A stretch of 63,949 nucleotides of DNA, from positions 1-63,949 of the forward strand of contig NZ_JACDOB010000007.1 of assembly GCF_017656375.1 (NCBI RefSeq), read 5' to 3'. The position numbers were made by a program, and so were the translations under genes. This document shows, piece by piece, positions 6,490 to 21,484 of this stretch (the first letter of the stretch is position 1; the number at the start of each line of letters is the position of its first letter). Source of the DNA: Thermovirga sp. Lineage in GTDB: Bacteria; Synergistota; Synergistia; Synergistales; Thermovirgaceae. The notes beneath the pieces were generated by a model, which was not told where the DNA came from, made no database searches, and saw only the letters and a list, made by a program, of their open reading frames with translations.

Positions 6490-7410
6490 CTACTTATTCT
6501 GATATACCGAAAGAGCAACCGCTGAAGCGATGGAAAGAAGTTTTGTCTCTGGAGTATCAGACCTGCTGGTCAACACTACCGGAGCCTTTGCACCCAGAAC
6601 AAGCCCAGCAGTCTTATTGTTGCTAAAGTAAACTATTGCCTTCGCCATCATGTTGCCAGCCTCTATATCGGGAACTAGCAGTATGTCCGCTTTGCCTGCA
6701 ACTTCTGAGACAATACCTTTGTGCTTCGCTGATTCCTCGCTTATCGCGTTATCAAGGGCGAAGGGGCCATCCACTATGCAGCCTTTAATCTGCTTGCGGC
6801 GATTCATCTGGGAAAGTGCCGCAGCATCCAGGGTACAAGGCATATCTGGATTTACTACCTCAACTGCAGCTAAAACAGCCACCTTTGGCATTTCTATACC
6901 GAAAGCATGGGCTAGCTGGACAGTATTATTTAAAATGTTGACTTTGGTTGGGAGGTCCGGGTACATGTTGAAAGCCGGATCACAAATGAAAAAGAGCCTG
7001 TCGTAGCCCTCTACTTGGTGAATATATACGTGGGAAAGGGTTCCACCTGTGCGAAGCCCTACTTCCTTGTTCAGTACCCCTCTGAGGAAATTGGCAGTTG
7101 AGATCATACCCTTCATCAAGATGTCTGCCTTGCCAGATGAGACCAATTTTACGGCTTCCAGGCTAATTTCCTTCTGGCCACCTTTTACATCCACTACTTC
7201 ATAGTTGCCCAGGTCAACACCCATAGAATCGGCTACTTCTTTGAGCTTGTCCGCGTTACCCACGAGGAACGCTTCAGCTACACCCTCTTTCCTGGCATTC
7301 TCAACGGCCTCAAGGACCTCAGGATCCTCTGCCAAAGCGACAGAAATTTTCTTAGGACCTACTTCTTTCGCATAAGCAAGAAGCTCTACAAGGGACTTAA
7401 TCTGTTTCAT
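6490..7410 (-). CDS. ptb: Phosphate butyryltransferase (second ptb)
   Basis: Converts acyl-CoA and phosphate to acyl-phosphate, feeding butyrate kinase. The 306-residue protein has the phosphotransacetylase/Ptb fold signatures KADILMKGMISTANFLRGVL (100s), PKVAVLAAVEVVNPDMP (175-190) and DILLVPDIEAGNMM near 245. The last two are almost identical in the adjacent paralogue at 7489-8397, which shows tandem duplication. ATG 7410 has GGAGG 8 bases upstream. The 78-base gap to the preceding ptb contains a TATAAT on the minus strand, so this ptb-buk half may also have its own promoter. Confidence 0.93.
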   Translation of the reverse strand: MKQIKSLVELLAYAKEVGPKKISVALAEDPEVLEAVENARKEGVAEAFLVGNADKLKEVADSMGVDLGNYEVVDVKGGQKEISLEAVKLVSSGKADILMKGMISTANFLRGVLNKEVGLRTGGTLSHVYIHQVEGYDRLFFICDPAFNMYPDLPTKVNILNNTVQLAHAFGIEMPKVAVLAAVEVVNPDMPCTLDAAALSQMNRRKQIKGCIVDGPFALDNAISEESAKHKGIVSEVAGKADILLVPDIEAGNMMAKAIVYFSNNKTAGLVLGAKAPVVLTSRSDTPETKLLSIASAVALSVYQNK

Positions 7411-7488
7411 CTATGGAACCTCCTTGTGAAATATAATTTATTATACGAGACAATATATTATCAAAATACAAATAAATATCTATCACAT

Positions 7489-8397
7489 TTATATCTTGCT
7501 GGCCAAAACAGCCCCTAGTGCTATGGAGCGCAATTTGGTTGCTGCAGAATCGAACCGGCTCGTTAGAACTACAGGAGTTTTTGCCCCTAAAATAACTCCT
7601 GCTCCTACCCCACCAGACATATACATCATCACTTTGCCCATCATGTTACCTGCCTCAATGTCTGGCACTAACAATATATCGGCCTTGCCAGCAACCTCAG
7701 ATACAATACCTTTATGTCTTGCCGATTCTTCACTTATGGCATTATCGAGAGCAAGAGGGCCATCTACTATGCAGTTTTTTATCTGGCCGCGAACGTTCAT
7801 CTGCTTCAAAGCCGCAGCGTCCAAGGTACAAGGCATATCAGGGTTGACTACTTCCACGGCAGCCAGCACTGCAACCTTGGGACACTCGACACCAAGCTTC
7901 CTGTAACATGATACGGCGTTTTCTATGAGTGCCTTTTTCGTGTTTAAATCAGGATACATGGTCATGCCGCCATCTGTTAGAGATACGACTCTGCCTAACT
8001 TGGGAATATAAAAAAGGAAAAGATGGGACAATATAGCTCCCGTTCTGAGTCCCCACTCCTTGTTCAAAACAGCTTTGAGCAACGTAGCAGTCTTTACATT
8101 ACCCTTCATGAGAAGATCCGCTTCTCCCGAAGAGACAGCCTTGACTGCTTTTTCCGCTGCATCCTTCTCACTAGAGCAGGGAACCTTTGCAAAATCGGAC
8201 AAATCAATGCCCAATTCAGCAGCAATGGCACCTATTTTGCCCAAATCACCAAACAAAACAGGCTCAACCACTCCCTCTTTGGCCGCATCCCAAACAGCTT
8301 CAAGCACGTCCACTCCCTGTGCTGCGGCCACCGCCAAGCGCATCTTCCTGCCAGCTTTACTTTCTGAAATCAAAAACTCCAAATCTTTAAAGGACAC
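7489..8397 (-). CDS. ptb: Phosphate butyryltransferase (first ptb)
   Basis: A second Ptb of 302 residues with the same motifs as its neighbour (KADILLVPDIEAGNMMGKV, PKVAVLAAVEVVNPDMP, NCIVDGPLALDNAISEESARHKG) but a divergent N-terminal half. It starts with GTG at 8397, 8 bases after GGAGG, and lies 3 bases from the end of the upstream buk, so the two are coupled. The paralogues share their C-terminal two thirds more than their N-termini. That could reflect different acyl specificity or partial gene conversion. Confidence 0.92.
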   Translation of the reverse strand: MSFKDLEFLISESKAGRKMRLAVAAAQGVDVLEAVWDAAKEGVVEPVLFGDLGKIGAIAAELGIDLSDFAKVPCSSEKDAAEKAVKAVSSGEADLLMKGNVKTATLLKAVLNKEWGLRTGAILSHLFLFYIPKLGRVVSLTDGGMTMYPDLNTKKALIENAVSCYRKLGVECPKVAVLAAVEVVNPDMPCTLDAAALKQMNVRGQIKNCIVDGPLALDNAISEESARHKGIVSEVAGKADILLVPDIEAGNMMGKVMMYMSGGVGAGVILGAKTPVVLTSRFDSAATKLRSIALGAVLASKI

Positions 8398-10671: not shown

Positions 10672-11496
10672 ATGAATTTTTGTTATATAGATGGCCTTTA
10701 CAGAAAACCTTCTGAAGCATATATACCTGTAACTGACTTGGCAATTCAAAGAGGCGTGGGGGTATTTGAAACCATACGCACATATAACAGGCGCCCTATG
10801 GCCCTTTCCATGCATTTGGAGCGGCTTCAGGAGTCAGCGCGAAGGTGCGGAATAGCCATGCCTCTAGACATAGAGGAGATGAATAAGATAATTCGAAATG
10901 GGCTAAGCCGTTTCGAAGAGGATGCAAGAGCCAGGCCATACATAACAGGGGGTGATATTGAAGTAGCGGGACAATTCCCTGAGGGACGGTTTTTTGTCTT
11001 CTTTGAGCCCCTAAATCCTCCTGAAGACAGGCTTTACAAGGAAGGTGTAACCCTGCTCCCTATAAATATGGAAAGGCCTTTACCTCACATAAAGAGCATT
11101 AACTACCTTCAGGGTTACCTACCATTGCGGGATGACCCTGAGGCTATAGAAATACTCTATTGCCCAAATGGCGAAATAACTGAAGCCTCCCACAGCAACG
11201 CCTTCATGGTTAAAGGAAAAGAAATAATAACCGCACCAACAAGCAGGGTTTTAGCAGGAACCATGAGGAATATGGTAATAGAAATTGCAAAAGAAGCCGG
11301 GTTTGTCGTAAGGGAACGCTGCCCCCTTGTGGAAGAACTCCCAGAGGCAGCTGAATTTTTCATAACCGGAAGCGTAAAAGAGATAATGCCGGTAGTAAAA
11401 GTTGGGGAAACACTCATAGGAAAGGGAAGGCCTGGCCCCGTCTCGCAAATGCTTAGGCATTTGTATCTACAGAACCTTAAAAGATGGTTAGAGTGA
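10672..11496 (+). CDS. Class IV aminotransferase (IlvE / D-amino acid aminotransferase / ADC lyase family)
   Basis: A 274-residue fold-type-IV PLP enzyme. The start is ATG 10672, with AAGGAGG 9 bases upstream; the longer open frame from 10606 has no site. Motifs are TDLAIQRGVGVFETIRTYN, the PLP lysine in PHIKSINYLQGYLP near 145, and NGEITEASHSNAFMVKG near 170. It is shorter and more divergent than the neighbouring IlvE, so it could act on D-amino acids or other 2-oxo acids, or be an aminodeoxychorismate lyase. Its 3' part (11036-11471) recurs without a mismatch at 19998-20433. Confidence 0.85.
   Translation: MNFCYIDGLYRKPSEAYIPVTDLAIQRGVGVFETIRTYNRRPMALSMHLERLQESARRCGIAMPLDIEEMNKIIRNGLSRFEEDARARPYITGGDIEVAGQFPEGRFFVFFEPLNPPEDRLYKEGVTLLPINMERPLPHIKSINYLQGYLPLRDDPEAIEILYCPNGEITEASHSNAFMVKGKEIITAPTSRVLAGTMRNMVIEIAKEAGFVVRERCPLVEELPEAAEFFITGSVKEIMPVVKVGETLIGKGRPGPVSQMLRHLYLQNLKRWLE
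11036..11471 (+). repeat. Left copy of a 436-bp perfect direct repeat
   Basis: I aligned this stretch base by base with 19998-20433 (constant offset 8962) and saw no mismatch or gap. It covers codons of the class IV aminotransferase from the sequence for YKEGVTLLP to YLQ. The similarity resumes upstream for 27 bases (10844-10870 against 19974-20000, three differences) after a 168-base gap in the right copy. Downstream the copies diverge at once, although both still encode an RWLE ending. The repeats bracket about 8.5 kb. Confidence 0.95.
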
Positions 11497-11507
11497 TATT
11501 CTTACTA

Positions 11508-12422
11508 TCACAAGGAAATATCATACTTCACCAAAAGCGTACTTAGTTTATCAATCTTTTCGTTGGCCTCTTGTGGTTTTTTAGTACCTAAAGCAGCTAC
11601 CAATGCATCGCATATTGTCAAAAGAGAGCTTGAACTGTAATGTGGAGTATTCTGAGGTGCCAACAAAAGTTCGGTTGCAAGTGGTGCTGCAGCGCTAGAC
11701 AAACTATTTGTTATAAGCACCACCGGAATATTGTTGTCGTGCGCGTATTTGACACAAGTTATTGTTCTTTTCGTATAATGTGGGCTTCCCGCCATAAGAG
11801 CTATCAATGCGTCTTCTTTTCCCATATCGAGCATAACATCTAGGATTGTATCGGAGCCAGTAGCATCGACCAGGAATACATCCCTCCAAAATTGCTGAAG
11901 CAAAGCATGCAAATATAAGGCTATTCCTTTTGTAGACCTCAAGCCCACTATATAAATCCTTCTAGCAGAAACCAATAATTCCACGGCTCGTGGGAAATGC
12001 ACCCTGAGATCCGGAGTGTTCATGCTTCTTAGATTTCGTATGTTTTCTTCTATAACCATATCTAAAATGTTATTTTCATCAGCTTCCGCAAATGTATCTT
12101 TCAATCTATCCAAAGGAGGGATACTTGTCTTTGTTAAAACTTCTTGAAGTTTATCCCTCAATGCTATATATGAAGCAAATCCCAAGCTCGCAACAGCCCT
12201 AAAAACCGTAGCGTGGCTAGTCCCTGATTCTCTGGCAAGCTCTTCCGCACTTAAAAAGGCTGCTTTTTGATAATTGTTCAAAATATAATCACAAACCAGC
12301 TGCTGTTTTTGAGGCAAATCTTTGCTTTTAGCTCTTATATACTGGAAAACACCTCCTGCATATCCCTCCAGGACGGCTTTTTTGCCTTTTACACTCACTG
12401 ATTTCTCCTTTCTTCTACCCAT
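11508..12422 (-). CDS. RpiR/MurR family transcriptional regulator
   Basis: A 304-residue regulator. The N-terminal helix-turn-helix (about residues 20-95) has the family signature FLSAEELARESGTSHATVFRAVASLGF, and a C-terminal SIS domain (about 130-270) includes IYIVGLRSTKGIALYLHALL and DALIALMAGSPHYTK. SIS domains sense phosphosugars or related ligands. ATG 12422 has GAGGAG 9 bases upstream. It is divergent from the TAXI/enolase/dehydrogenase cassette and is the obvious candidate to control it. It faces the upstream aminotransferase tail to tail. Confidence 0.88.
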   Translation of the reverse strand: MGRRKEKSVSVKGKKAVLEGYAGGVFQYIRAKSKDLPQKQQLVCDYILNNYQKAAFLSAEELARESGTSHATVFRAVASLGFASYIALRDKLQEVLTKTSIPPLDRLKDTFAEADENNILDMVIEENIRNLRSMNTPDLRVHFPRAVELLVSARRIYIVGLRSTKGIALYLHALLQQFWRDVFLVDATGSDTILDVMLDMGKEDALIALMAGSPHYTKRTITCVKYAHDNNIPVVLITNSLSSAAAPLATELLLAPQNTPHYSSSSLLTICDALVAALGTKKPQEANEKIDKLSTLLVKYDISL

Positions 12423-12488
12423 TCAATAAACTCCTCTCAATATAATCATGTGAATACATTATGCAATATTGTTTTGATTTTCTCAACA

Positions 12489-12517
12489 TTGACCTACAAA
12501 ATAGATTTTGTTAAATT
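12489..12517 (+). promoter_or_regulatory. Promoter of the broken TAXI binding-protein copy and enolase-type gene
   Basis: TTGACC (12489-12494), 17 bases, TAAATT (12512-12517). The same two hexamers at the same 17-base spacing precede the intact binding-protein gene at 14126-14154, although the spacer sequences differ. That conservation supports function. Confidence 0.6.
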
Positions 12518-12523
12518 GTATAC

Positions 12524-12541
12524 TGATACTGTTATGTGTCA
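12524..12541. promoter_or_regulatory. Inverted repeat just downstream of the promoter, candidate operator
   Basis: TGATAC, 6 bases, GTGTCA (12524-12541), with one mismatch between the arms. A very similar element, TTGATAC N6 GTATCAA, lies at 14191-14210 in front of the second copy. The shared sequence near both promoters makes it a reasonable RpiR operator candidate. Confidence 0.4.
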
Positions 12542-12632
12542 ATACACTGAAACTTGTTATTTAAATATGTCAATCTCTACTTGTACAAATTTGTATTCTA
12601 CAACAAATACCAAAAAAAGGAGGCGATGGAAT

Positions 12633-12791
12633 TTGCGATTGAGGAAGTTGGCAACATTGTTTTTGCCTTTTACTCTATTAGAGGTAGCAGGAGCTGCGTC
12701 GGTAGTTGAGAGGCTTTCTCTGGCTCCAGGCGAAACGGCAGGAATATATTATCTCATAAGCTCTGCTATAGCATCTATCATCAACAAATAG
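12633..12791 (+). pseudogene. Truncated 5' copy of the TAXI binding-protein gene
   Basis: A TTG at 12633 behind AAAAAGGAGG starts a 52-codon frame encoding a signal-peptide-like segment and then ERLSLAPGETAGIYYLISSA. This parallels ERLSLATGGTAGTYYPIGSA in the intact protein at 14227-15180. Where the intact gene has CAC after IINK, this copy has TAG, and similarity stops a few bases later. The longer open frame beginning at 12450 runs through the promoter and is not a real N-terminus. The fragment cannot make a binding protein, but its promoter and leader sit in front of the enolase-type gene and may serve it. Confidence 0.85.
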
Positions 12792-12898
12792 GTCGCCCCT
12801 TTTGAGGTTTAGGGTTCTGTTTTTCTTAAGCCTCAAAGCATCAGATAGAACTCAACATCTGGAAATGGACAAGTATTTATTGAGGAGGAAACCTTTCT

Positions 12899-14044
12899 GT
12901 GAAAATAACAAGTATGGAAATATTTGAAATCGTAGTTCCTCTAAAAGACAAATATACCCTTTCGAAAGTCATAGGGTCTAAAAGCTCCACAGAGTGCGTA
13001 CTGGTAAAAATTGACACTGACGAAGGCATCTACGGAATAGGAGAAGCCGATCCCCATGTCCCATTTACAGAGGAATCCATGGAAAGCATAACCTATTGCA
13101 TACTCAACTATTTGTCCCCATTGGTCATCGGCCAGGACCCTGAAAACATCGAAGGCATCAATTCACTTATGGATCAAGGCGTAAAGCTTAACCTGATGGC
13201 AAAGGGAGCCATCAACATGGCCTGCTACGACATCTTGGGCAAGAAGAGGAACATTCCAATATACGAAATGTTCGGAGGCAAAATTAGAGACTTTATCCCT
13301 TTGGCATGGTCCGTGGGCAATTCTCCTCCGGAACAAACTGTCAAAGATGTACAAAAAGCACATGACGAAGGTTTTAAAACCATAATGATAAAAACAGGGC
13401 ATTTTGCTCCCCACACCGATATTGAGCGAATAAGACTTGTTCGAAATACTTACCCAAATATAAAAATAATAGTAGACGTAAATCAGGGATGGGACGTAGA
13501 AACGTCCATAGAAGTTGGGCGCAAAATTGCTCCCCTTGACATATATTTCTTGGAACAGCCTGTGCCTTACTGGGATATTGAGGGCCTTGCGAAGATTAAA
13601 AAATCCATTCCGATCCCAATTTCAGTAGATGAATCTCTCCTTACTCTCCACGATGCACGCAGAATAATTCGCGAAGGCGCTGCAGATATTTTCAGCATAA
13701 AAGTTTCAAAAAACGGTGGAATATCGAGGGCACAAAAGTTAATTAAAATTGCTGCAGAAAACGAAATAAAATGCTGGATGAACTCAATGTTAGAAGAAGG
13801 AATAACCCAGGCAGCAAGCCTTCATCTTGGACTCAGCACTCCTAATCTACTTGACGGAGGCCATGCGTATTTTTCTCCACTGCGTCTCGCTGCTGATATC
13901 TCTACATATTCAGAAAACATCCAAGATTTAAAAATTTACCCTCCGACAAGACCAGGGCTGGGAATTGATTTAAAAACTGAGACGATCAATAGGTTCTTGA
14001 GAAACAAATACAACTTCTCTGCCACAAACTCAGCATATCGATGA
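12899..14044 (+). CDS. Enolase-superfamily enzyme, muconate-lactonizing/dipeptide-epimerase-like
   Basis: A 381-residue protein with an N-terminal capping domain (about 1-125) and a TIM-barrel domain. Metal ligands are seen as the aspartate of IVDVNQGW (near 198), the glutamate of FLEQPV (near 224) and the aspartate of SVDES (near 249). The base lysine on the far side is in FSIKVSKNGG (near 273). The barrel-strand-2 motif is IMIKTG, so the first lysine of the usual KxK pair is methionine and only the second remains. Family members epimerise, racemise or eliminate alpha to a carboxylate. GTG 12899 has GAGGAGG 9 bases upstream. It lies between the broken and intact binding-protein copies and probably acts on the transported substrate. 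Confidence 0.82.
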   Translation: MKITSMEIFEIVVPLKDKYTLSKVIGSKSSTECVLVKIDTDEGIYGIGEADPHVPFTEESMESITYCILNYLSPLVIGQDPENIEGINSLMDQGVKLNLMAKGAINMACYDILGKKRNIPIYEMFGGKIRDFIPLAWSVGNSPPEQTVKDVQKAHDEGFKTIMIKTGHFAPHTDIERIRLVRNTYPNIKIIVDVNQGWDVETSIEVGRKIAPLDIYFLEQPVPYWDIEGLAKIKKSIPIPISVDESLLTLHDARRIIREGAADIFSIKVSKNGGISRAQKLIKIAAENEIKCWMNSMLEEGITQAASLHLGLSTPNLLDGGHAYFSPLRLAADISTYSENIQDLKIYPPTRPGLGIDLKTETINRFLRNKYNFSATNSAYR

Positions 14045-14125
14045 AAGGTATAATCTTTAATTTGACACCCCCCTGCACGGAAAGCTAGGTATACATTATA
14101 CAATATTGCTCCAATCTTCACAATA

Positions 14126-14154
14126 TTGACCCCGGTGATTAATTTTGTTAAATT
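14126..14154 (+). promoter_or_regulatory. Promoter of the intact TAXI transporter operon
   Basis: TTGACC (14126-14131), 17-base spacer, TAAATT (14149-14154), matching the promoter of the upstream copy in hexamers and spacing. Confidence 0.6.
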
Positions 14155-14190
14155 GCATACTGAAATACCTTAGTTTCAATATCATAAAAG

Positions 14191-14210
14191 TTGATACTTG
14201 AATGTATCAA
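14191..14210. promoter_or_regulatory. Perfect inverted repeat in the TAXI leader, candidate operator
   Basis: TTGATAC (14191-14197), 6 bases, GTATCAA (14204-14210). It lies about 37 bases past the -10 box and directly against the AAGGAGG ribosome site, so a bound RpiR-type repressor, or an RNA hairpin, could block expression. Confidence 0.45.
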
Positions 14211-14226
14211 AAGGAGGCGACGGAAA

Positions 14227-15180
14227 TTGAATTTAAGAAAGTTAGCGGCATTGTTTTTGGTTGTTGCTCTGTTAGGAGTAACAGGAGCGGCGTCGGCAGC
14301 AGAGAGACTATCTCTGGCTACAGGTGGAACGGCAGGAACGTATTATCCCATAGGCTCTGCTATAGCATCTATCATCAACAAACACGTCCCAGGTGTAGAA
14401 GTCACTGCAGAATCAACCGGTGCTTCCGTGGCAAACTTAAAAATGCTTCGTAACAAACAGGTAGATCTTATGTTAGGAGCAGCCAATACATCTTGGGGAG
14501 GATATAATGGCTTGCCCCCCTTCGAGAAAAAACCTGTCAAGAACATTCGCGGAATAGCATGCCTCTATCCCGAAACATTCCAGTTTATTGTCTTAAAGAA
14601 TTCAGGACTTAAAACTATTTACGATCTTAAAGGCAAAAAAGTTGCAGTAGGAGCTGCAGGCAGCGGAACGGAGAGAACTGCAAAAATGGTATTAGAAGCA
14701 CACGGGCTAACCTACAAAGATATAGATGAACAATTCCTGAAATTCGGAGAGGCAGTTACGGCCTTGAAAGATAGACTAATCGACTGTGCTATCGTTGGAT
14801 CTGGTATCCCAACTTCAGCTGTTGTAGATGCTTCAACCACATTAGACATCGCCATGTTGGAAGTTGACGAACAAGTTATGAAAGAATTTCTTGCTGACAG
14901 GCCTTACCTTATGCTCTACAAAATACCGGCTGGCGTTTATCGCGGCATAGACAAAGAGGTTCTTACAGTTGCAAGTCCAGCTATCTTTAGTGCAGAAGCA
15001 AGCTTGAGTGAAGAGACAGTATATAAAATCACCAAAGCTCTTTTTGAACACCTCGACGAACTAGCTGCAGCACATGTCCAGGGCAAGAATATAAAGCTCG
15101 AAACCGCGTTGAGCGCTATGTCTGTTCCTCTTCATCCAGGAGCCGAAAAATATTACAAAGAAGTTGGTCTTCTGAAGTAA
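14227..15180 (+). CDS. TAXI-family TRAP transporter substrate-binding protein
   Basis: A 317-residue secreted solute receptor. A TTG start at 14227 follows AAGGAGG at 9 bases; the alternative ATG at 14201-14203 region lies upstream of that site. A lysine/arginine-led hydrophobic signal peptide ends near GAASAAERL. The mature protein opens SLATGGTAGTYYPIGSA, the TAXI signature, and continues with EVTAESTGASVANLKMLR. TAXI proteins deliver amino acids, dicarboxylates or related compounds to a fused DctQM permease, here encoded downstream after a DUF1850 gene. The stem-loop after it (15211-15245) suggests that more binding protein than permease is made. Confidence 0.92.
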   Translation: MNLRKLAALFLVVALLGVTGAASAAERLSLATGGTAGTYYPIGSAIASIINKHVPGVEVTAESTGASVANLKMLRNKQVDLMLGAANTSWGGYNGLPPFEKKPVKNIRGIACLYPETFQFIVLKNSGLKTIYDLKGKKVAVGAAGSGTERTAKMVLEAHGLTYKDIDEQFLKFGEAVTALKDRLIDCAIVGSGIPTSAVVDASTTLDIAMLEVDEQVMKEFLADRPYLMLYKIPAGVYRGIDKEVLTVASPAIFSAEASLSEETVYKITKALFEHLDELAAAHVQGKNIKLETALSAMSVPLHPGAEKYYKEVGLLK

Positions 15181-15210
15181 TCAGCAATATCACGTTGGTC
15201 TCAAATACGC

Positions 15211-15245
15211 AGAGCGGGGGCACTCCTGGGAAAGCCCCCCGCTCT
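15211..15245 (+). other. Stem-loop between binding-protein and permease genes
   Basis: AGAGCGGGGG (15211-15220) pairs perfectly with CCCCCGCTCT (15236-15245). No T run follows, so it is more likely an mRNA 3'-end stabiliser or partial terminator within the operon. Confidence 0.7.
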
Positions 15246-15253
15246 TAAAAAGG

Positions 15254-15790
15254 ATGGTGCCGTTTGTGACTCGTAAGAAAATTATAACATTTTTCCTAAT
15301 ATCTCTCTTTCTTTTTGGTATCGCCTCAATTCTTTTTCATAACGTGATCATACTTGAAATCACGAATTATGAGAACGGCTCAACTTTGTACAGAAAGCAA
15401 GTTCCACCTGGATATTCATTTGCCACGTTGATTCGCCATTCAGTCCACTTAACGCCCGTATATGAATACTACCGTATAGACGAAAACGGAAGGATAATCT
15501 TGGAATCCACCAAACTCCAAGATTTAGGATGGGGTGTACCCTCGACATTCACAGAACCTTGTAGGTTTGAAGGTGGATTTCTCATTATCGAAGGTTTTAA
15601 AAAACCTTTGGATTTTATTCCTTTCAGAGTTAGCTATATAGCACAACCGCACCTATTATTAGATGGGGGGAAACGAAACGTGGACTTGAAATGCGTGGTT
15701 AATGACGAAGAAAGAATTGATATATCCGCAAACAAAGATCCTTTGTGGAAAGTTCTTATTAGAGGTGAGGTCGATGTTCTTCCTAAATAG
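15254..15790 (+). CDS. DUF1850 protein associated with TAXI TRAP transporters
   Basis: A 178-residue protein with one N-terminal membrane anchor (about residues 8-30) and an extracytoplasmic domain. It contains FATLIRHSVHLTPVYEYYRI and LQDLGWGVPSTF, the pattern of DUF1850 proteins, which are typically encoded next to fused TRAP permeases. The molecular role is not established. ATG 15254 is close to its AAAAAGG site; GTG 15266 is an equally plausible start. It overlaps the permease gene by 17 bases. Confidence 0.8.
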   Translation: MVPFVTRKKIITFFLISLFLFGIASILFHNVIILEITNYENGSTLYRKQVPPGYSFATLIRHSVHLTPVYEYYRIDENGRIILESTKLQDLGWGVPSTFTEPCRFEGGFLIIEGFKKPLDFIPFRVSYIAQPHLLLDGGKRNVDLKCVVNDEERIDISANKDPLWKVLIRGEVDVLPK

Positions 15791-17759
15791 AAAGAAAAGG
15801 CAACAAACTACTGTAGACATAGAAGAGTTGAACAAAAAGCTAGATAACAAACGAAGCTTGACTGGAATTGCTGCAAAAATATGTTTCTTTTTAGCTATTT
15901 GCATGTCCATATTTCATTTATATACATCTGGCTTCGGGATGCTTCCGCAAATGCAGCATAGAGCTATCCACTTGGCGTTCGCCCTGTCTCTTACATTCTT
16001 TATCTATCCTTCATCTGATAAGTACAGAGAAAAAGTCCCTTGGTTCGATTGGGTAGTTATCGTTTTTTCATTGGGAGTTGGTGCTTATCTAGTCCTCGAC
16101 TATATGAATATTGCCATGCGCGCCGGTGACCCACTAACTAGGGATCTGGTTCTAGGTGGTTTTACCATATTGATAGTAATGGAAGCCACCCGTCGAAGCA
16201 TGGGATGGCCATTGGTAATAGTAGCATCTTCCTTCTTGCTCTATGCCCTACTAGGGCATCTCATTCCTGGAAATCTGGGGCATAAACAATACGGGCTTTC
16301 AAGAATTATCGAACACATGTTCCTCACGAGTGAAGGAATTTATGGTGTTGCTATTTACGTCACTTCCACTTTCGTGTTTGTTTTCATATTGCTTGGTTCA
16401 TTCCTCATAGAAACGGGCGGAGCGCAAGCCTTTATAGACCTCGCTTTTTCCCTTACAGGCCGTTACCGTGGTGGCCCCGCAAAAGCAGCCGTCGTAGGAA
16501 GCGGATTAATGGGAACTATCTCCGGAAGCTCTTTTGCAAATGTCGCAGGTACGGGAACTTTCACAATCCCATTGATGAAAAGCGTAGGTTACAAACCCGA
16601 ATTTGCCGGAGGTGTAGAAGCAGCAGCGTCATCTGGAGGTCAAATTATGCCACCTATTATGGGTGCTGCAGCATTCATAATGGCAGAAATGACCGGTGTA
16701 CCGTATGGTAAGCTTATTGTTCACGCGGCTATTCCAGCCGTCTTATACTATCTTTCTGTTTTTCTAATGGTCGATTTCGAAGCTGCAAAAATGGGCCTAA
16801 AGGGACTCAGAAAAGATCAATTGCCAAGCTTTATAGAAACGTTAAAAAAAGGCGGGTTCTTACTTCTCGCCCCATTAAGCATAGTTTACATGCTACTGGC
16901 AGGCTACTCACCTATTAAAGCGTCATTTAGTGCAGTTATGCTGGTCATAGTTGCAAGTTTCATAAGGAAAGAAACACGATTGACTCCTAAAAAATTCCTA
17001 CGAGCTCTTGAAATGGGTGCCAGAGGAGCACTAAGCGTAATTGCAGCATGCGCCGTGGCCGGCCTAATAGTAGGCACCGTAACCCTTACAGGATTAGGCT
17101 TAAAATTTGCAGACCTTATAATAGCTCTCTCTAAAGGATCACTTTATCCTGCTCTTGTGTTGACAATGCTCGCTTCAATAATTATGGGTATGGGAATGCC
17201 CACAACTGCCCTTTACATTATTCTTGGCTCCATGGTGGCACCAGCATTGGTGAAAATGAATGTTCCAATAGTGGCAGCACACCTTTTCATCTTCTATTTT
17301 GGGTGTATGGCTTCCGTTACACCACCTGTAGCCCTCAGCTCCTATCTAGCTGCAGCGATAGCGAAGGGGGACGCAGTAAAAACAGCTCTAAATGGTCTAC
17401 GATTAGCCTCTGCAGCATTCATACTTCCCTTTATATTTGCTCTTGAACCCAAACTACTTCTTATAAACGCTTCCTTCTCTTCCGCTACAATAGCTACGAT
17501 AACGGCAATCCTTGGAGTAGTAGCCATGGCATCATGTCTAGAAAACTACTTCTTCGGACCTTTAAACATTTTTCAAAGAATTCTCATGGGCATAGCGGCC
17601 TTGGCCATGATGTATCCAGAGATATACTCAGATTTATTAGGTCTTGGGCTTATCCTGTCAATTTATTTCATGCAGAAAATAATTAAGGCAAAAAACGCGA
17701 CCTCTTTCCCTTTAAAAGTTTCAAAAGCTCCTGTAGAGGGGGAAGAGAAAAATGAATAA
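15774..17759 (+). CDS. TRAP transporter fused permease (DctQM, TAXI type)
   Basis: A 661-residue multi-pass protein combining the small 4-helix DctQ-like part (about 1-170) and the large DctM part. DctM hallmarks are GTISGSSFANVAGTGTFTIPLMK, AAASSGGQIMPPIMGAAAFIMAE, MGMGMPTTALYIILG and ASVTPPVALSSYLAA. The start is ATG 15774 behind GAGGTGAGG; the open frame from 15702 reads through the DUF1850 gene. It imports the ligand of the upstream binding protein using a sodium or proton gradient. It overlaps the next gene by 8 bases. Confidence 0.92.
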   Translation: MFFLNRKKRQQTTVDIEELNKKLDNKRSLTGIAAKICFFLAICMSIFHLYTSGFGMLPQMQHRAIHLAFALSLTFFIYPSSDKYREKVPWFDWVVIVFSLGVGAYLVLDYMNIAMRAGDPLTRDLVLGGFTILIVMEATRRSMGWPLVIVASSFLLYALLGHLIPGNLGHKQYGLSRIIEHMFLTSEGIYGVAIYVTSTFVFVFILLGSFLIETGGAQAFIDLAFSLTGRYRGGPAKAAVVGSGLMGTISGSSFANVAGTGTFTIPLMKSVGYKPEFAGGVEAAASSGGQIMPPIMGAAAFIMAEMTGVPYGKLIVHAAIPAVLYYLSVFLMVDFEAAKMGLKGLRKDQLPSFIETLKKGGFLLLAPLSIVYMLLAGYSPIKASFSAVMLVIVASFIRKETRLTPKKFLRALEMGARGALSVIAACAVAGLIVGTVTLTGLGLKFADLIIALSKGSLYPALVLTMLASIIMGMGMPTTALYIILGSMVAPALVKMNVPIVAAHLFIFYFGCMASVTPPVALSSYLAAAIAKGDAVKTALNGLRLASAAFILPFIFALEPKLLLINASFSSATIATITAILGVVAMASCLENYFFGPLNIFQRILMGIAALAMMYPEIYSDLLGLGLILSIYFMQKIIKAKNATSFPLKVSKAPVEGEEKNE

Positions 17760-18885
17760 AATTACCGTTATAGGAGCAGGTAATGGTGGCACTAGTATTG
17801 CAGCTTGGCTTTCTTTAAAAGGCTGTAAAGTTAAACTTTACGACAAGTTCGAATCAACTTTAACTGAGATCAGAAATGCTAAAGGCATATTATTAAAGGG
17901 GAAAGGAATACGTGGATTCGCACCTATCGAGAAAGCCACATCGAACATAGAAGAAGCGCTTGAAGGCTCAAGCCTTATAATGGTCGTCACTCCTGCCTTT
18001 GCTCATGCAGAAATTGCCAAGCTTTGTGCACCTTATCTAGTCAACGGGCAAATAATAATCCTCAACCCTGGGCGAACAGGAGGCGCCATAGAATTTCATA
18101 AAGTCGCCACGGAAGTTAATCCTTCGGCATCCTTCACCATAGCGGAAACTCAATCGCTTATTTTTGCCTGTAGAATAACTGGCCCTGCAGAAGCAACTAT
18201 ATATGAAATAAAACGGAAAATGCCTGTTGCCGCCATCCCTACATCGCAGACACAAAAAGTAGCAAACATTCTATCTTCTTACTTCCCTCAAATCCAAGCT
18301 GCTCAGAGCGTACTAGAAACAAGTTTATCTAACATAGGAGCTATATTCCATCCAACCCCCACTATATTAAATATTGCAAGAATTGAAGCAAAACACAACT
18401 TTGAATATTACCTGCAGGGCATATCACCTTGCGTCTCAAAAATCCTAGAGCGTTTAGACAGTGAAAGAATAGCTTTAGCTTCAAGAATGGGCCTCAATGT
18501 ACCAAGCGCCAAACAGTGGCTCCAAGAAGTTTACGGTATTCCAATAAAGGACTCCGAAACTCTTTATGAAGCCATACAAAAACAAAAAGCCTATAAAGGC
18601 ATACTAGCTCCCAAAACGCCTGACGTGAGATATATCACTGAAGATGTTCCCATGAGCCTTGTACCCCTCTCTGAGCTAGCCAAGGTTTTTGAAATAAAAA
18701 CTCCTGTCATGGATAGCATCATTTGTTTAGCTAACATCATCCATGATTGTGATTATAGAAAAAACGGGAGAAATCTTAAGAAATTAGGCTTAGAGAAAAT
18801 GACTCCAGATCAAATAATTAATTCTTTTGCACATATAACATCGGAAAGGAAGGTACATAACGATGATAAAAGACAAGCAAGTTAA
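17752..18885 (+). CDS. NAD(P)-dependent octopine/opine dehydrogenase family protein
   Basis: A 377-residue protein. An N-terminal Rossmann domain opens ITVIGAGNGGTSIAAWLSLKG. The C-terminal NAD/NADP octopine/nopaline dehydrogenase domain contains SLSNIGAIFHPTPTILNIARIE, whose histidine matches the catalytic position in this family. Opine dehydrogenases reductively couple an amino acid with a 2-oxo acid, or reverse this. The 8-base overlap with the permease and 23-base open-frame overlap with the next gene make this part of the transporter operon. It could split an imported opine-like compound, but related proteins have other substrates and the direction cannot be told from sequence. Confidence 0.82.
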   Translation: MNKITVIGAGNGGTSIAAWLSLKGCKVKLYDKFESTLTEIRNAKGILLKGKGIRGFAPIEKATSNIEEALEGSSLIMVVTPAFAHAEIAKLCAPYLVNGQIIILNPGRTGGAIEFHKVATEVNPSASFTIAETQSLIFACRITGPAEATIYEIKRKMPVAAIPTSQTQKVANILSSYFPQIQAAQSVLETSLSNIGAIFHPTPTILNIARIEAKHNFEYYLQGISPCVSKILERLDSERIALASRMGLNVPSAKQWLQEVYGIPIKDSETLYEAIQKQKAYKGILAPKTPDVRYITEDVPMSLVPLSELAKVFEIKTPVMDSIICLANIIHDCDYRKNGRNLKKLGLEKMTPDQIINSFAHITSERKVHNDDKRQAS

Positions 18886-19909
18886 ATTTTTATATCTCAA
18901 CCAGAAGGAAGTCATCCAATGCGGAGCTTTGGATATGTTCATGGTTATGGGACAAATAGAGAACTTCTTTTCCCTTCATGATAATGGTGAAACCATAATA
19001 CCAGATAAAGTTACCTTACGTTGGGGAGATGCCTCTTCCGAAGCTGTCACGGGAAGAATAAATGCAATGCCAGGCTTTGTAGGAGGGGAAATAAACACAG
19101 CAGGCATAAAATGGATAGGGAGCAAACCCCTCAATCCCACAAAATACGGTTTACCAAGAGCATCAGCTCTAACCATTTTGAACGATCCAGAAACAGGGCT
19201 TCCAATAGCTATAATGGACGGAACTATTATAAGCGCCATGAGAACTGGTGCCGTCACAGGCGTAGCGACAAAATATCTGGCTCGAAAAAACTCAGAAAAA
19301 GCAGCCTTCATCGGGGCGGGGACACAAAATCATACGCAACTTCAAGCAATTATGACAGCTGTTCCCTCGCTTAAAGAAATCGTGATTTGCGACCTCTCCG
19401 AAGACAGACTCAAAAACTTCGTAAACTTAGAAAAAACGAGATGGCCTGAATTATCGATCAAATATACTACCTCAGCAGAAGAAGCCGTTAGGGACTCAGA
19501 CATCGTTGTCACGGCAACGACAACCTTAAACCCGATAGTCAAGGCTAACTGGATAAAAAACGGTGCTTTCTTAGCAAACGTAGGCAACTATGAATTTGAA
19601 TTCGACGCAATAAGAAAGGCCAATAAAATCATAGTGGATGACTGGGATGCATTGGTTCACCGTGGAATTCAAACTCCGGCTATAATGGCAAAAGAAGGAT
19701 TATTGAGCAGAGAAGATATTTATGCAGAACTGGGAGCAATAGTAAACAGAAAAAAAGAAGCTCGACAAAGCGATGAAGAAATTATTTACTTTTGCGCCGT
19801 AGGAAACGGAGGAGAAGATGTAGCTGTAGCAAAGAAAATATATGACAAAGCATTGGAAAAGGGACTAGGGACATACTTGATTCTTTGGGATGAGCCCTTC
19901 TGGATCTAA
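18863..19909 (+). CDS. Ornithine cyclodeaminase / mu-crystallin family protein
   Basis: A 348-residue protein. The substrate-domain signature IISAMRTGAVTGVATKYLARKN is followed by a Rossmann domain (AAFIGAGTQNHTQLQAI near 155, VICDLSEDRL, DIVVTATTT). The family includes ornithine cyclodeaminase, delta-1-pyrroline-2-carboxylate and ketimine reductases, alanine dehydrogenase and opine enzymes, so the exact reaction is open. ATG 18863 has GGAAAGGAAGG upstream. It is the last gene of the cassette and is followed by a strong bidirectional terminator. Next to an opine dehydrogenase and an epimerase-like enzyme, a role in imino-acid, opine or D-amino-acid breakdown is the best guess. Confidence 0.85.
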   Translation: MIKDKQVKFLYLNQKEVIQCGALDMFMVMGQIENFFSLHDNGETIIPDKVTLRWGDASSEAVTGRINAMPGFVGGEINTAGIKWIGSKPLNPTKYGLPRASALTILNDPETGLPIAIMDGTIISAMRTGAVTGVATKYLARKNSEKAAFIGAGTQNHTQLQAIMTAVPSLKEIVICDLSEDRLKNFVNLEKTRWPELSIKYTTSAEEAVRDSDIVVTATTTLNPIVKANWIKNGAFLANVGNYEFEFDAIRKANKIIVDDWDALVHRGIQTPAIMAKEGLLSREDIYAELGAIVNRKKEARQSDEEIIYFCAVGNGGEDVAVAKKIYDKALEKGLGTYLILWDEPFWI

Positions 19910-19922
19910 GGATTTAAATTAA

Positions 19923-19966
19923 GAAAAAGCGAAATGATAACGGCTTTTCGATCATTTCGCTTTTTC
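19923..19966. terminator. Strong bidirectional terminator closing the cassette
   Basis: GAAAAAGCGAAATGAT (19923-19938) pairs over all 16 bases with ATCATTTCGCTTTTTC (19951-19966) around a 12-base loop. A-rich and T-rich arms give a U tract in both directions. It lies just left of the right-hand 436-bp repeat. Confidence 0.92.
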
Positions 19967-19973
19967 TTTCTCT

Positions 19974-20458
19974 GGTGCAAAATAGCCATGCCTCTAAACA
20001 AGGAAGGTGTAACCCTGCTCCCTATAAATATGGAAAGGCCTTTACCTCACATAAAGAGCATTAACTACCTTCAGGGTTACCTACCATTGCGGGATGACCC
20101 TGAGGCTATAGAAATACTCTATTGCCCAAATGGCGAAATAACTGAAGCCTCCCACAGCAACGCCTTCATGGTTAAAGGAAAAGAAATAATAACCGCACCA
20201 ACAAGCAGGGTTTTAGCAGGAACCATGAGGAATATGGTAATAGAAATTGCAAAAGAAGCCGGGTTTGTCGTAAGGGAACGCTGCCCCCTTGTGGAAGAAC
20301 TCCCAGAGGCAGCTGAATTTTTCATAACCGGAAGCGTAAAAGAGATAATGCCGGTAGTAAAAGTTGGGGAAACACTCATAGGAAAGGGAAGGCCTGGCCC
20401 CGTCTCGCAAATGCTTAGGCATTTGTATCTACAAAATATAGCCCGTTGGTTGGAATAA
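19974..20458 (+). pseudogene. Truncated second copy of the class IV aminotransferase
   Basis: It starts within the codons for the CGIAMPL region of the aminotransferase (10844 onward), lacks the 168 bases equivalent to 10871-11038, then runs identical to 11036-11471 and ends NIARWLE rather than NLKRWLE. The deletion is exactly 56 codons and its ends share ACA, consistent with slippage or recombination at microhomology. No N-terminal domain, ribosome site or start is present; the open frame begins inside the terminator at 19923-19966. The PLP lysine (HIKSINYLQG) survives, but the fragment cannot fold as a complete class IV enzyme. Confidence 0.9.
19998..20433 (+). repeat. Right copy of the 436-bp perfect direct repeat
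   Basis: Identical to 11036-11471 in the same orientation. Beyond 20433 the sequences diverge abruptly, but both still encode RWLE and then stop. The right copy therefore keeps a natural gene end that differs from the left one, as expected if two related gene ends were recombined. Confidence 0.95.
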
Positions 20459-20566
20459 CATGATAAAATTATTCTCAGATAAGAATAAACTCTGTAATCA
20501 CGGCCACGCATAATAAAGCTAAAAAGCTTAAAAGCCAAACCTAATTTGGCGGGAGATGAAAAGGAT

Positions 20567-21484
20567 ATGGGTTTTCTTTCTGTGGGAGTGCAGGCGTGGG
20601 TAGCAGCTTTCGCTTCATTGTTAGTTCAATCTTTTTACTTAGTTTTACTTTTCTTTATGTTTGGCCTTAAGACAAATTTGGCCAAACATATAAGCGTCGA
20701 TGTAAGCCCTTCCCTAACCCTTCCAGCTTCTCCAGCGGAGACAGGCTATCTGTATCATGCAGATTACCATTACAATTGCCTGGTGGCATCTTTGGTACAC
20801 CTTGCAATTGAAGGAATAATATCCATTGCCGACCACTATGAGGGCTGGATAATTCATATGGAATCACCTTGTCCCTCTGCCCGTGCTCAAGAGGAAAAAT
20901 TTCTTTTCCAGGAAATGTTCAAAGACAAAAAAACCTATCTCATTGAACGAGACGCTCCCACAAAATTTGCGGAATTGAATAAATCCTTTCAGATACATAT
21001 GGATAAAACCTTTGGGAGCAAACTAACCAAACCTCATATTGAGGCTATCTTAGGAGTGGTTACCCTTGCAATATTCGGAGGTTTTTTGACCTTTACAGCA
21101 AATAATTGCTCTGCTGCGATCATAACCATATATTCAGCCCTTTCATTTGTATTAGCCTACATAGGCACGTTAATTCTAAGAAAGCCTACTTCATACTTGC
21201 TTAGGGGACATGAGATAGTTTCAGATCTTAGGTCCAAGATTATGAAAGGGCCAGACCCGTCTAAAAACACCGGAGAAATAATAGAGGATTACTTTTTGAA
21301 ATTGCCCCATGCCATAGCATTGGAAGTTGGCAGGTTTTGGACAATTGCAACTGTCGAAATGTTAAAATCAAGAGGCGTGGATCCCTCCTCGATTGAACCA
21401 GAGTGGTATTCTAATGAAAATCGTGGTTTAATGGATATCATAGGTCTTATAGACGGTCTCATAGAATGCCTGAAAAACAAGTAA
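20567..21484 (+). CDS. Membrane protein resembling the DUF2207/YciQ C-terminal region
   Basis: A 305-residue protein with an N-terminal membrane segment (about 10-35), a soluble region and two closely spaced membrane helices (about 165-210). The region from PASPAETGYLYHADYHYNCL through LVHLAIEGIISI and EEKFLFQEMF resembles the YciQ/DUF2207 pattern of a proline-containing lead, a repression-domain-like helix pair and an E-L-F motif. The start is ATG 20567; an upstream TTG at 20546 has no ribosome site. A small hairpin (GCCAAA/TTTGGC) precedes it. It lies 51 bases before the sensor kinase and may share its transcript. Function unknown. Confidence 0.6.
   Translation: MGFLSVGVQAWVAAFASLLVQSFYLVLLFFMFGLKTNLAKHISVDVSPSLTLPASPAETGYLYHADYHYNCLVASLVHLAIEGIISIADHYEGWIIHMESPCPSARAQEEKFLFQEMFKDKKTYLIERDAPTKFAELNKSFQIHMDKTFGSKLTKPHIEAILGVVTLAIFGGFLTFTANNCSAAIITIYSALSFVLAYIGTLILRKPTSYLLRGHEIVSDLRSKIMKGPDPSKNTGEIIEDYFLKLPHAIALEVGRFWTIATVEMLKSRGVDPSSIEPEWYSNENRGLMDIIGLIDGLIECLKNK

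Follow-up and report, generated by a model that had tools for sequence, protein, structure and literature searches.

A perfect 436-bp repeat around a resident operon in Thermovirga sp. probably reflects recent gene conversion of a decayed aminotransferase gene copy

We analysed a stretch of 63,949 nucleotides from Thermovirga sp. (contig NZ_JACDOB010000007.1), hereafter called the window, which belongs to a draft genome of 85 contigs and 1.80 Mb. The locus under study contains an intact class-IV aminotransferase gene (AT), an RpiR-family regulator, a transport/opine operon and a fragment of roughly 480 bp, 9 kb away from AT and similar to it, here called AT'. Comparisons were made above all with G001, the sole other genome of the genus in a comparison set with one genome per species (2 contigs, near complete). 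The features of the locus are as follows.

10672-11496, forward strand: AT, intact class-IV aminotransferase gene (BCAT / D-amino-acid transaminase-like; Pfam Aminotran_4 over its full length)
11036-11471, forward strand: left copy of the identical tract, inside AT, exactly identical to 19998-20433
11508-12422, reverse strand: RpiR-family regulator of the operon (HTH_6 + SIS), 75% identical to the G001 orthologue at the same place
12454-12794, forward strand: TAXI', a truncated second copy comprising the leader and first part of the TAXI gene and closing with a stop codon; 82% identical to 14209-14388
12899-14044, forward strand: mandelate racemase / muconate lactonizing (MR/MLE, enolase-superfamily) gene (MR_MLE_N/C)
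14191-19909, forward strand: operon, read here as ancestral, of TAXI solute-binding protein, DUF1850, fused TRAP permease, octopine-type dehydrogenase and ornithine cyclodeaminase family protein (OCD) (Pfam/NCBIfam)
19921-19968, forward strand: candidate terminator of the operon, a long hairpin downstream of OCD with T-rich sequence behind it (-23 kcal/mol, z = -6.4)
19974-20000, forward strand: left edge of AT', diverged remnant of AT codons 64-72; 24/27 identical to 10844-10870
19998-20433, forward strand: right copy of the identical tract, inside the presumably decayed AT', exactly identical to 11036-11471
20434-20458, forward strand: diverged 3' tail of AT' (QNIARWLE-stop), 13/25 identical to the left tail
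20546-21484, forward strand: membrane protein gene, with a 68% orthologue next to OCD in G001 and a 33% one next to OCD in G004

The two copies of the tract agree base for base over exactly 436 bp at an offset of 8,962, and outside it they diverge on both sides. The pair is the longest repeat of the window, where the only other direct repeat of at least 60 bp is the older TAXI' pair in the same operon, and a search of the whole source genome (all 85 contigs) found these two copies of the tract and no others. The gene ends beyond the tract differ and nevertheless both encode RWLE, the left one within QNLKRWLE and the right one within QNIARWLE. In both respects our base-by-base comparison bears out the original prediction, which had been made from the sequence of this locus. 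The intact gene, for which 10606 and 10654 are alternative starts, adjoins buk-ptb, an arrangement conserved in genomes G001 to G009, and its product shares 85-86% amino acid identity with the G001 orthologue.

The right copy had been described as lacking the 5' half of the gene. The start is indeed lost, but simple truncation does not account for its anatomy: a diverged block corresponding to AT codons 64-72 is kept at 19974-20000, its final 3 nt overlapping the identical tract, and between this remnant and the core an in-frame deletion of 168 bp has removed AT codons 73-128. To the codon 64-72 block of AT, 19974-20000 is the sole match of at least 20/27 on either strand of the window. At the other end, the tail encodes IARWLE-stop in frame, so that AT' consists of a perfectly identical middle between two diverged ends, with the start and an internal piece missing. 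The match of its frame (19934-20458, 174 codons) to the family is confined to the C-terminal part (profile positions 104-223), and no convincing start site was seen by eye. AT' is therefore most readily taken as a decayed AT copy and a non-functional pseudogene; it could still be expressed, given the in-frame deletion and the open frame.

The genes between the two copies have a longer history in the lineage. G001 carries AT, RpiR, TAXI, DUF1850, TRAP, octopine-type dehydrogenase, OCD and the membrane protein in the same order, followed as in the window by a histidine kinase and a response regulator, with 72-78% nucleotide identity over aligned blocks. The distance from OCD to the membrane-protein homology is 185 nt in G001 versus 657 nt in the window, and the AT fragment is absent from that gap in G001. 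G004, from a second genus of the family, has AT and RpiR as a convergent pair on one contig and the run TRAP-dehydrogenase-OCD-membrane protein on a second one; the two contigs presumably adjoin, and there is no AT fragment at its OCD-membrane protein junction. Synteny of the operon was also found in G010 and, in another family of the order, in G017 and G026; from TRAP onward it holds in G004 as well. In all five of these genomes the TRAP-TAXI, octopine-type dehydrogenase and OCD operon with RpiR has the same genes in the same order. A query with OCD across the accessible genome contigs matched only distant loci (29-43%), and a literature search on this operon returned nothing relevant. Since the same operon occupies the same site in G001 without the right copy, and G004 shows the same junctions, the operon predates the repeat; judged by this gene order, the 8.5-kb segment is an old resident operon of the lineage, in place before AT' arose or was last altered. 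AT' itself could be an ancestral feature lost in G001, the comparison within the genus being with one genome.

As to the end of the operon, a simple terminator scan did not list the hairpin at 19921-19968, probably because of the scan's stem and loop limits. The hairpin sequence is not conserved in G001, where another GC-rich stretch that looks like a hairpin takes its place.

These comparisons bear directly on the original prediction that the segment came by recombining into AT or by integration of a circle. Under that scenario, a DNA molecule, circular or linear, bearing the operon together with an AT end would have entered a resident AT by a single crossover, the right tail being the original AT end. 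The repeat topology is what such an event leaves, and the right tail is an intact, in-frame AT end, so that the crossover product is an intact gene. However, G001 holds the same operon in the same place without the right copy, and G004 has the same junctions. The original prediction had pointed to diverged repeats in relatives as evidence that would speak against it; what the relatives show is the same arrangement without any second repeat, which refutes a cassette insertion more directly than diverged repeats could. Nor does an empty site appear: the membrane protein was found in 5 of 61 genomes, and no genome examined joins it directly to AT. More distant members of the family, which lack the cassette, retain buk-ptb beside AT but have neither RpiR nor the operon there, and a Sir2-like gene (named from its sequence) adjoins AT in several of those whose contig reaches it. 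The low GC of the segment is real (about 0.39-0.44 in the operon), but the same genes dip equally in G001 (about 0.39-0.50, against 0.49-0.52 for the G001 upstream genes), and we rejected a foreign composition on this ground. A plasmid or phage origin was likewise rejected, there being no megablast match in plasmid or phage records; the genes examined, as had been predicted, include neither an integrase nor a transposase. Finally, an integrated cassette should be bracketed by collinear, complete repeats, whereas the right copy has lost AT codons 73-128 by deletion, which is unexpected from a fresh crossover. The locus does resemble Campbell-type integrations and IS-less cassettes in having direct repeats of a gene segment around accessory genes, from which deletion by recombination is possible in principle. 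It differs from them in that the block is resident in relatives without a second repeat, and in that the second copy is internally deleted and has a diverged tail. We consider the insertion of a cassette very unlikely.

Instead, the AT' tract is best explained by a recent gene conversion of an older AT', within a lineage in which the operon was already resident; we assign this reading a probability of roughly 0.7. The original prediction had mentioned ongoing gene conversion as an alternative, and the perfect core between diverged ends now makes conversion the favoured one. At fourfold-degenerate sites, AT of the window and its G001 orthologue are only about 35% identical, which is near saturation, so the unbroken 436-bp identity must be far younger than the species split, in agreement with the earlier view that perfect identity marks a recent event. 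The two paralogous tracts match at 436 of 436 positions, compared with 24/27 and 13/25 in their flanks and 78% between the tract and the G001 orthologue, which is the pattern that conversion produces. With the flanks pooled, AT and AT' are 71% identical (37/52), and the probability of a 436-bp perfect run is about 1e-64 at that identity and still about 1e-22 at 89%; a run so improbable at the flank identity points to recent conversion. Moreover, on its left the tract stops at the deletion edge, which is what a conversion running to the end of homology would produce. The intact AT is the probable donor, because its 5' part stands in the same relation to the family as its core: both are nearest to G001 (82% and 90% amino acid identity, respectively), consistent with the orthologues along the whole length, and the gene has no mosaic sign.

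From these observations we infer the conversion event, its direction from the intact to the decayed copy, and the origin of AT'. AT' would have arisen by an old duplication of the neighbouring AT or by transfer from a relative, would then have lost its N-terminal part, including the in-frame 168-bp internal piece, and would have drifted. More recently, homologous recombination, of the RecA type and without crossover, would have copied 436 bp of the intact AT into AT', starting at the deletion edge and stopping some 25 bp short of the gene end, leaving a perfect middle and the diverged ends. The 52 nt of diverged ends constrain the age and source of AT' only poorly.

The same ends argue against a recent duplication. 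Diverged ends of the same gene on both sides do not fit a recent duplication of the whole fragment, and a recent partial one, in which 436 bp of AT were copied by template switching into the gap between OCD and the membrane protein, would leave the matching ends to chance. Short ectopic copies do arise in bacteria, and such a copy would account for the perfect identity. Against it, the 27-nt left block, unique in the window at the threshold given above, is collinear and in frame, and the tail encodes RWLE-stop at exactly the right place and in the right frame. We regard this explanation as highly improbable.

It is unlikely, too, that AT' was imported from another lineage as foreign DNA, its core being subsequently matched to the resident gene or the resident core giving way to the foreign one. 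Between the AT' tail and the left tail the divergence is about that seen between species, and the AT' tail is somewhat nearer to the G001 tail, both of which would suit an import; but the tail is too short to place, and the core of the left gene has no sign of foreign origin, so a conversion step would be needed anyway.

We also considered that the repeat is an assembly artefact, a mis-resolved repeat arising, for example, from a chromosome that joins AT to the membrane protein together with a free operon circle, or from the collapse of similar copies during polishing. The source genome is a draft of 85 contigs; the repeat forms a node with two entries and two exits, which fits either path, and finished bacterial genomes are known to suffer misassembly at repeats that equal or exceed the reads in length (PMC5771137). 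However, the right copy is flanked by unique, diverged ends that match the gene, which shows that a second AT copy physically exists, and the synteny with G001 supports the assembled linear order. An artefact is accordingly quite unlikely; a mixture of excised and unexcised states would be compatible with the assembly alone.

In ectopic gene conversion and concerted evolution of prokaryotic paralogues (for example PMC6053082), as at the AT/AT' locus, paralogous DNA is more alike than it is to the orthologue, and a perfect tract with sharp edges lies between diverged ends. The present locus differs from the published long-lasting cases in that the recipient is a broken fragment without evident function and in that a single genome shows the event. 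Long-lasting concerted evolution is described there as rare in prokaryotes and as affecting mostly key genes of important pathways over very long times. The AT/AT' locus would thus read as a case of standard ectopic conversion.

A second, older duplication, overlooked in the original prediction, lies in the same operon. Between RpiR and the complete TAXI gene, the window carries 1.6 kb absent from G001, made up of TAXI' and the MR/MLE gene; the latter has no match in G001, and its relatives (67-68%) are the last operon gene, after OCD, in G017 and G026, whereas in the window it precedes TAXI behind a duplicated leader. TAXI' reaches a stop at about codon 60. Since TAXI' and TAXI are 82% alike, and each is 83-89% identical to G001 over 180 bp (TAXI' 83%; leader 69-78%), the TAXI' duplication is, by these identities, old and unconverted. 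The bracketing of the MR/MLE gene by TAXI' looks like an older duplication or insertion in the operon, and a tandem duplication of the operon followed by deletion is one speculative route to the gene order seen here. A single tandem duplication of the AT-to-OCD block as the source of both AT' and TAXI' was rejected, as the order misfits and there is no RpiR remnant after AT'. The 18-bp sequence ATACATTATRCAATATTG occurs twice in the window, at 12454-12471 upstream of the MR/MLE gene and at 14091-14108 upstream of TAXI; the G001 stretch has it a single time, likewise before TAXI. It is a candidate RpiR operator or promoter element, and its presence in both leaders and in the G001 leader suggests that the MR/MLE gene may be regulated together with the operon.

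The MR/MLE-type protein has M in place of the first lysine of the KxK motif in the second barrel strand (IMIKTG, compared with LKIKVG in the 1jpm epimerase), and the second K and the D/E/D/K positions are apparently kept. This change might mean one-base acid/base chemistry rather than racemisation.

By the synteny described above, the repeats are not what brought the operon to this site. The earlier suggestion that they could let the cassette pop out holds to the extent that a RecA-type unequal crossover could in principle delete the 8,962-bp segment; a reading-frame check predicts that the product would be an AT frame of 274 codons ending in QNIARWLE. A far-reaching extension, for which we see only a very remote chance, is that repeated conversion keeps AT' identical as a standing recombination site and that populations reversibly lose the 9-kb transport/opine operon by crossover. 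If true, AT/AT' would be a homology-driven on/off switch without a recombinase, in which the crossover restores an intact aminotransferase.

Upstream of AT, at 6490-8397, two adjacent phosphate butyryltransferase-like genes are strongly alike only in their C-terminal part at the protein level, both in the window and in G001. We do not claim conversion between these two ptb genes, as their fourfold sites have no clear homogenisation.

On this reading, one genome offers a clear example of a conversion tract whose edge falls at a deletion within a pseudogene, and with further strains of the species the locus could serve for following conversion and deletion between repeats. In other respects it would represent ordinary genome housekeeping and not a new mobile cassette. 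A group of genes bracketed by a perfect repeat may be mistaken for a recently inserted cassette, and here comparison with a single close relative overturns that view.
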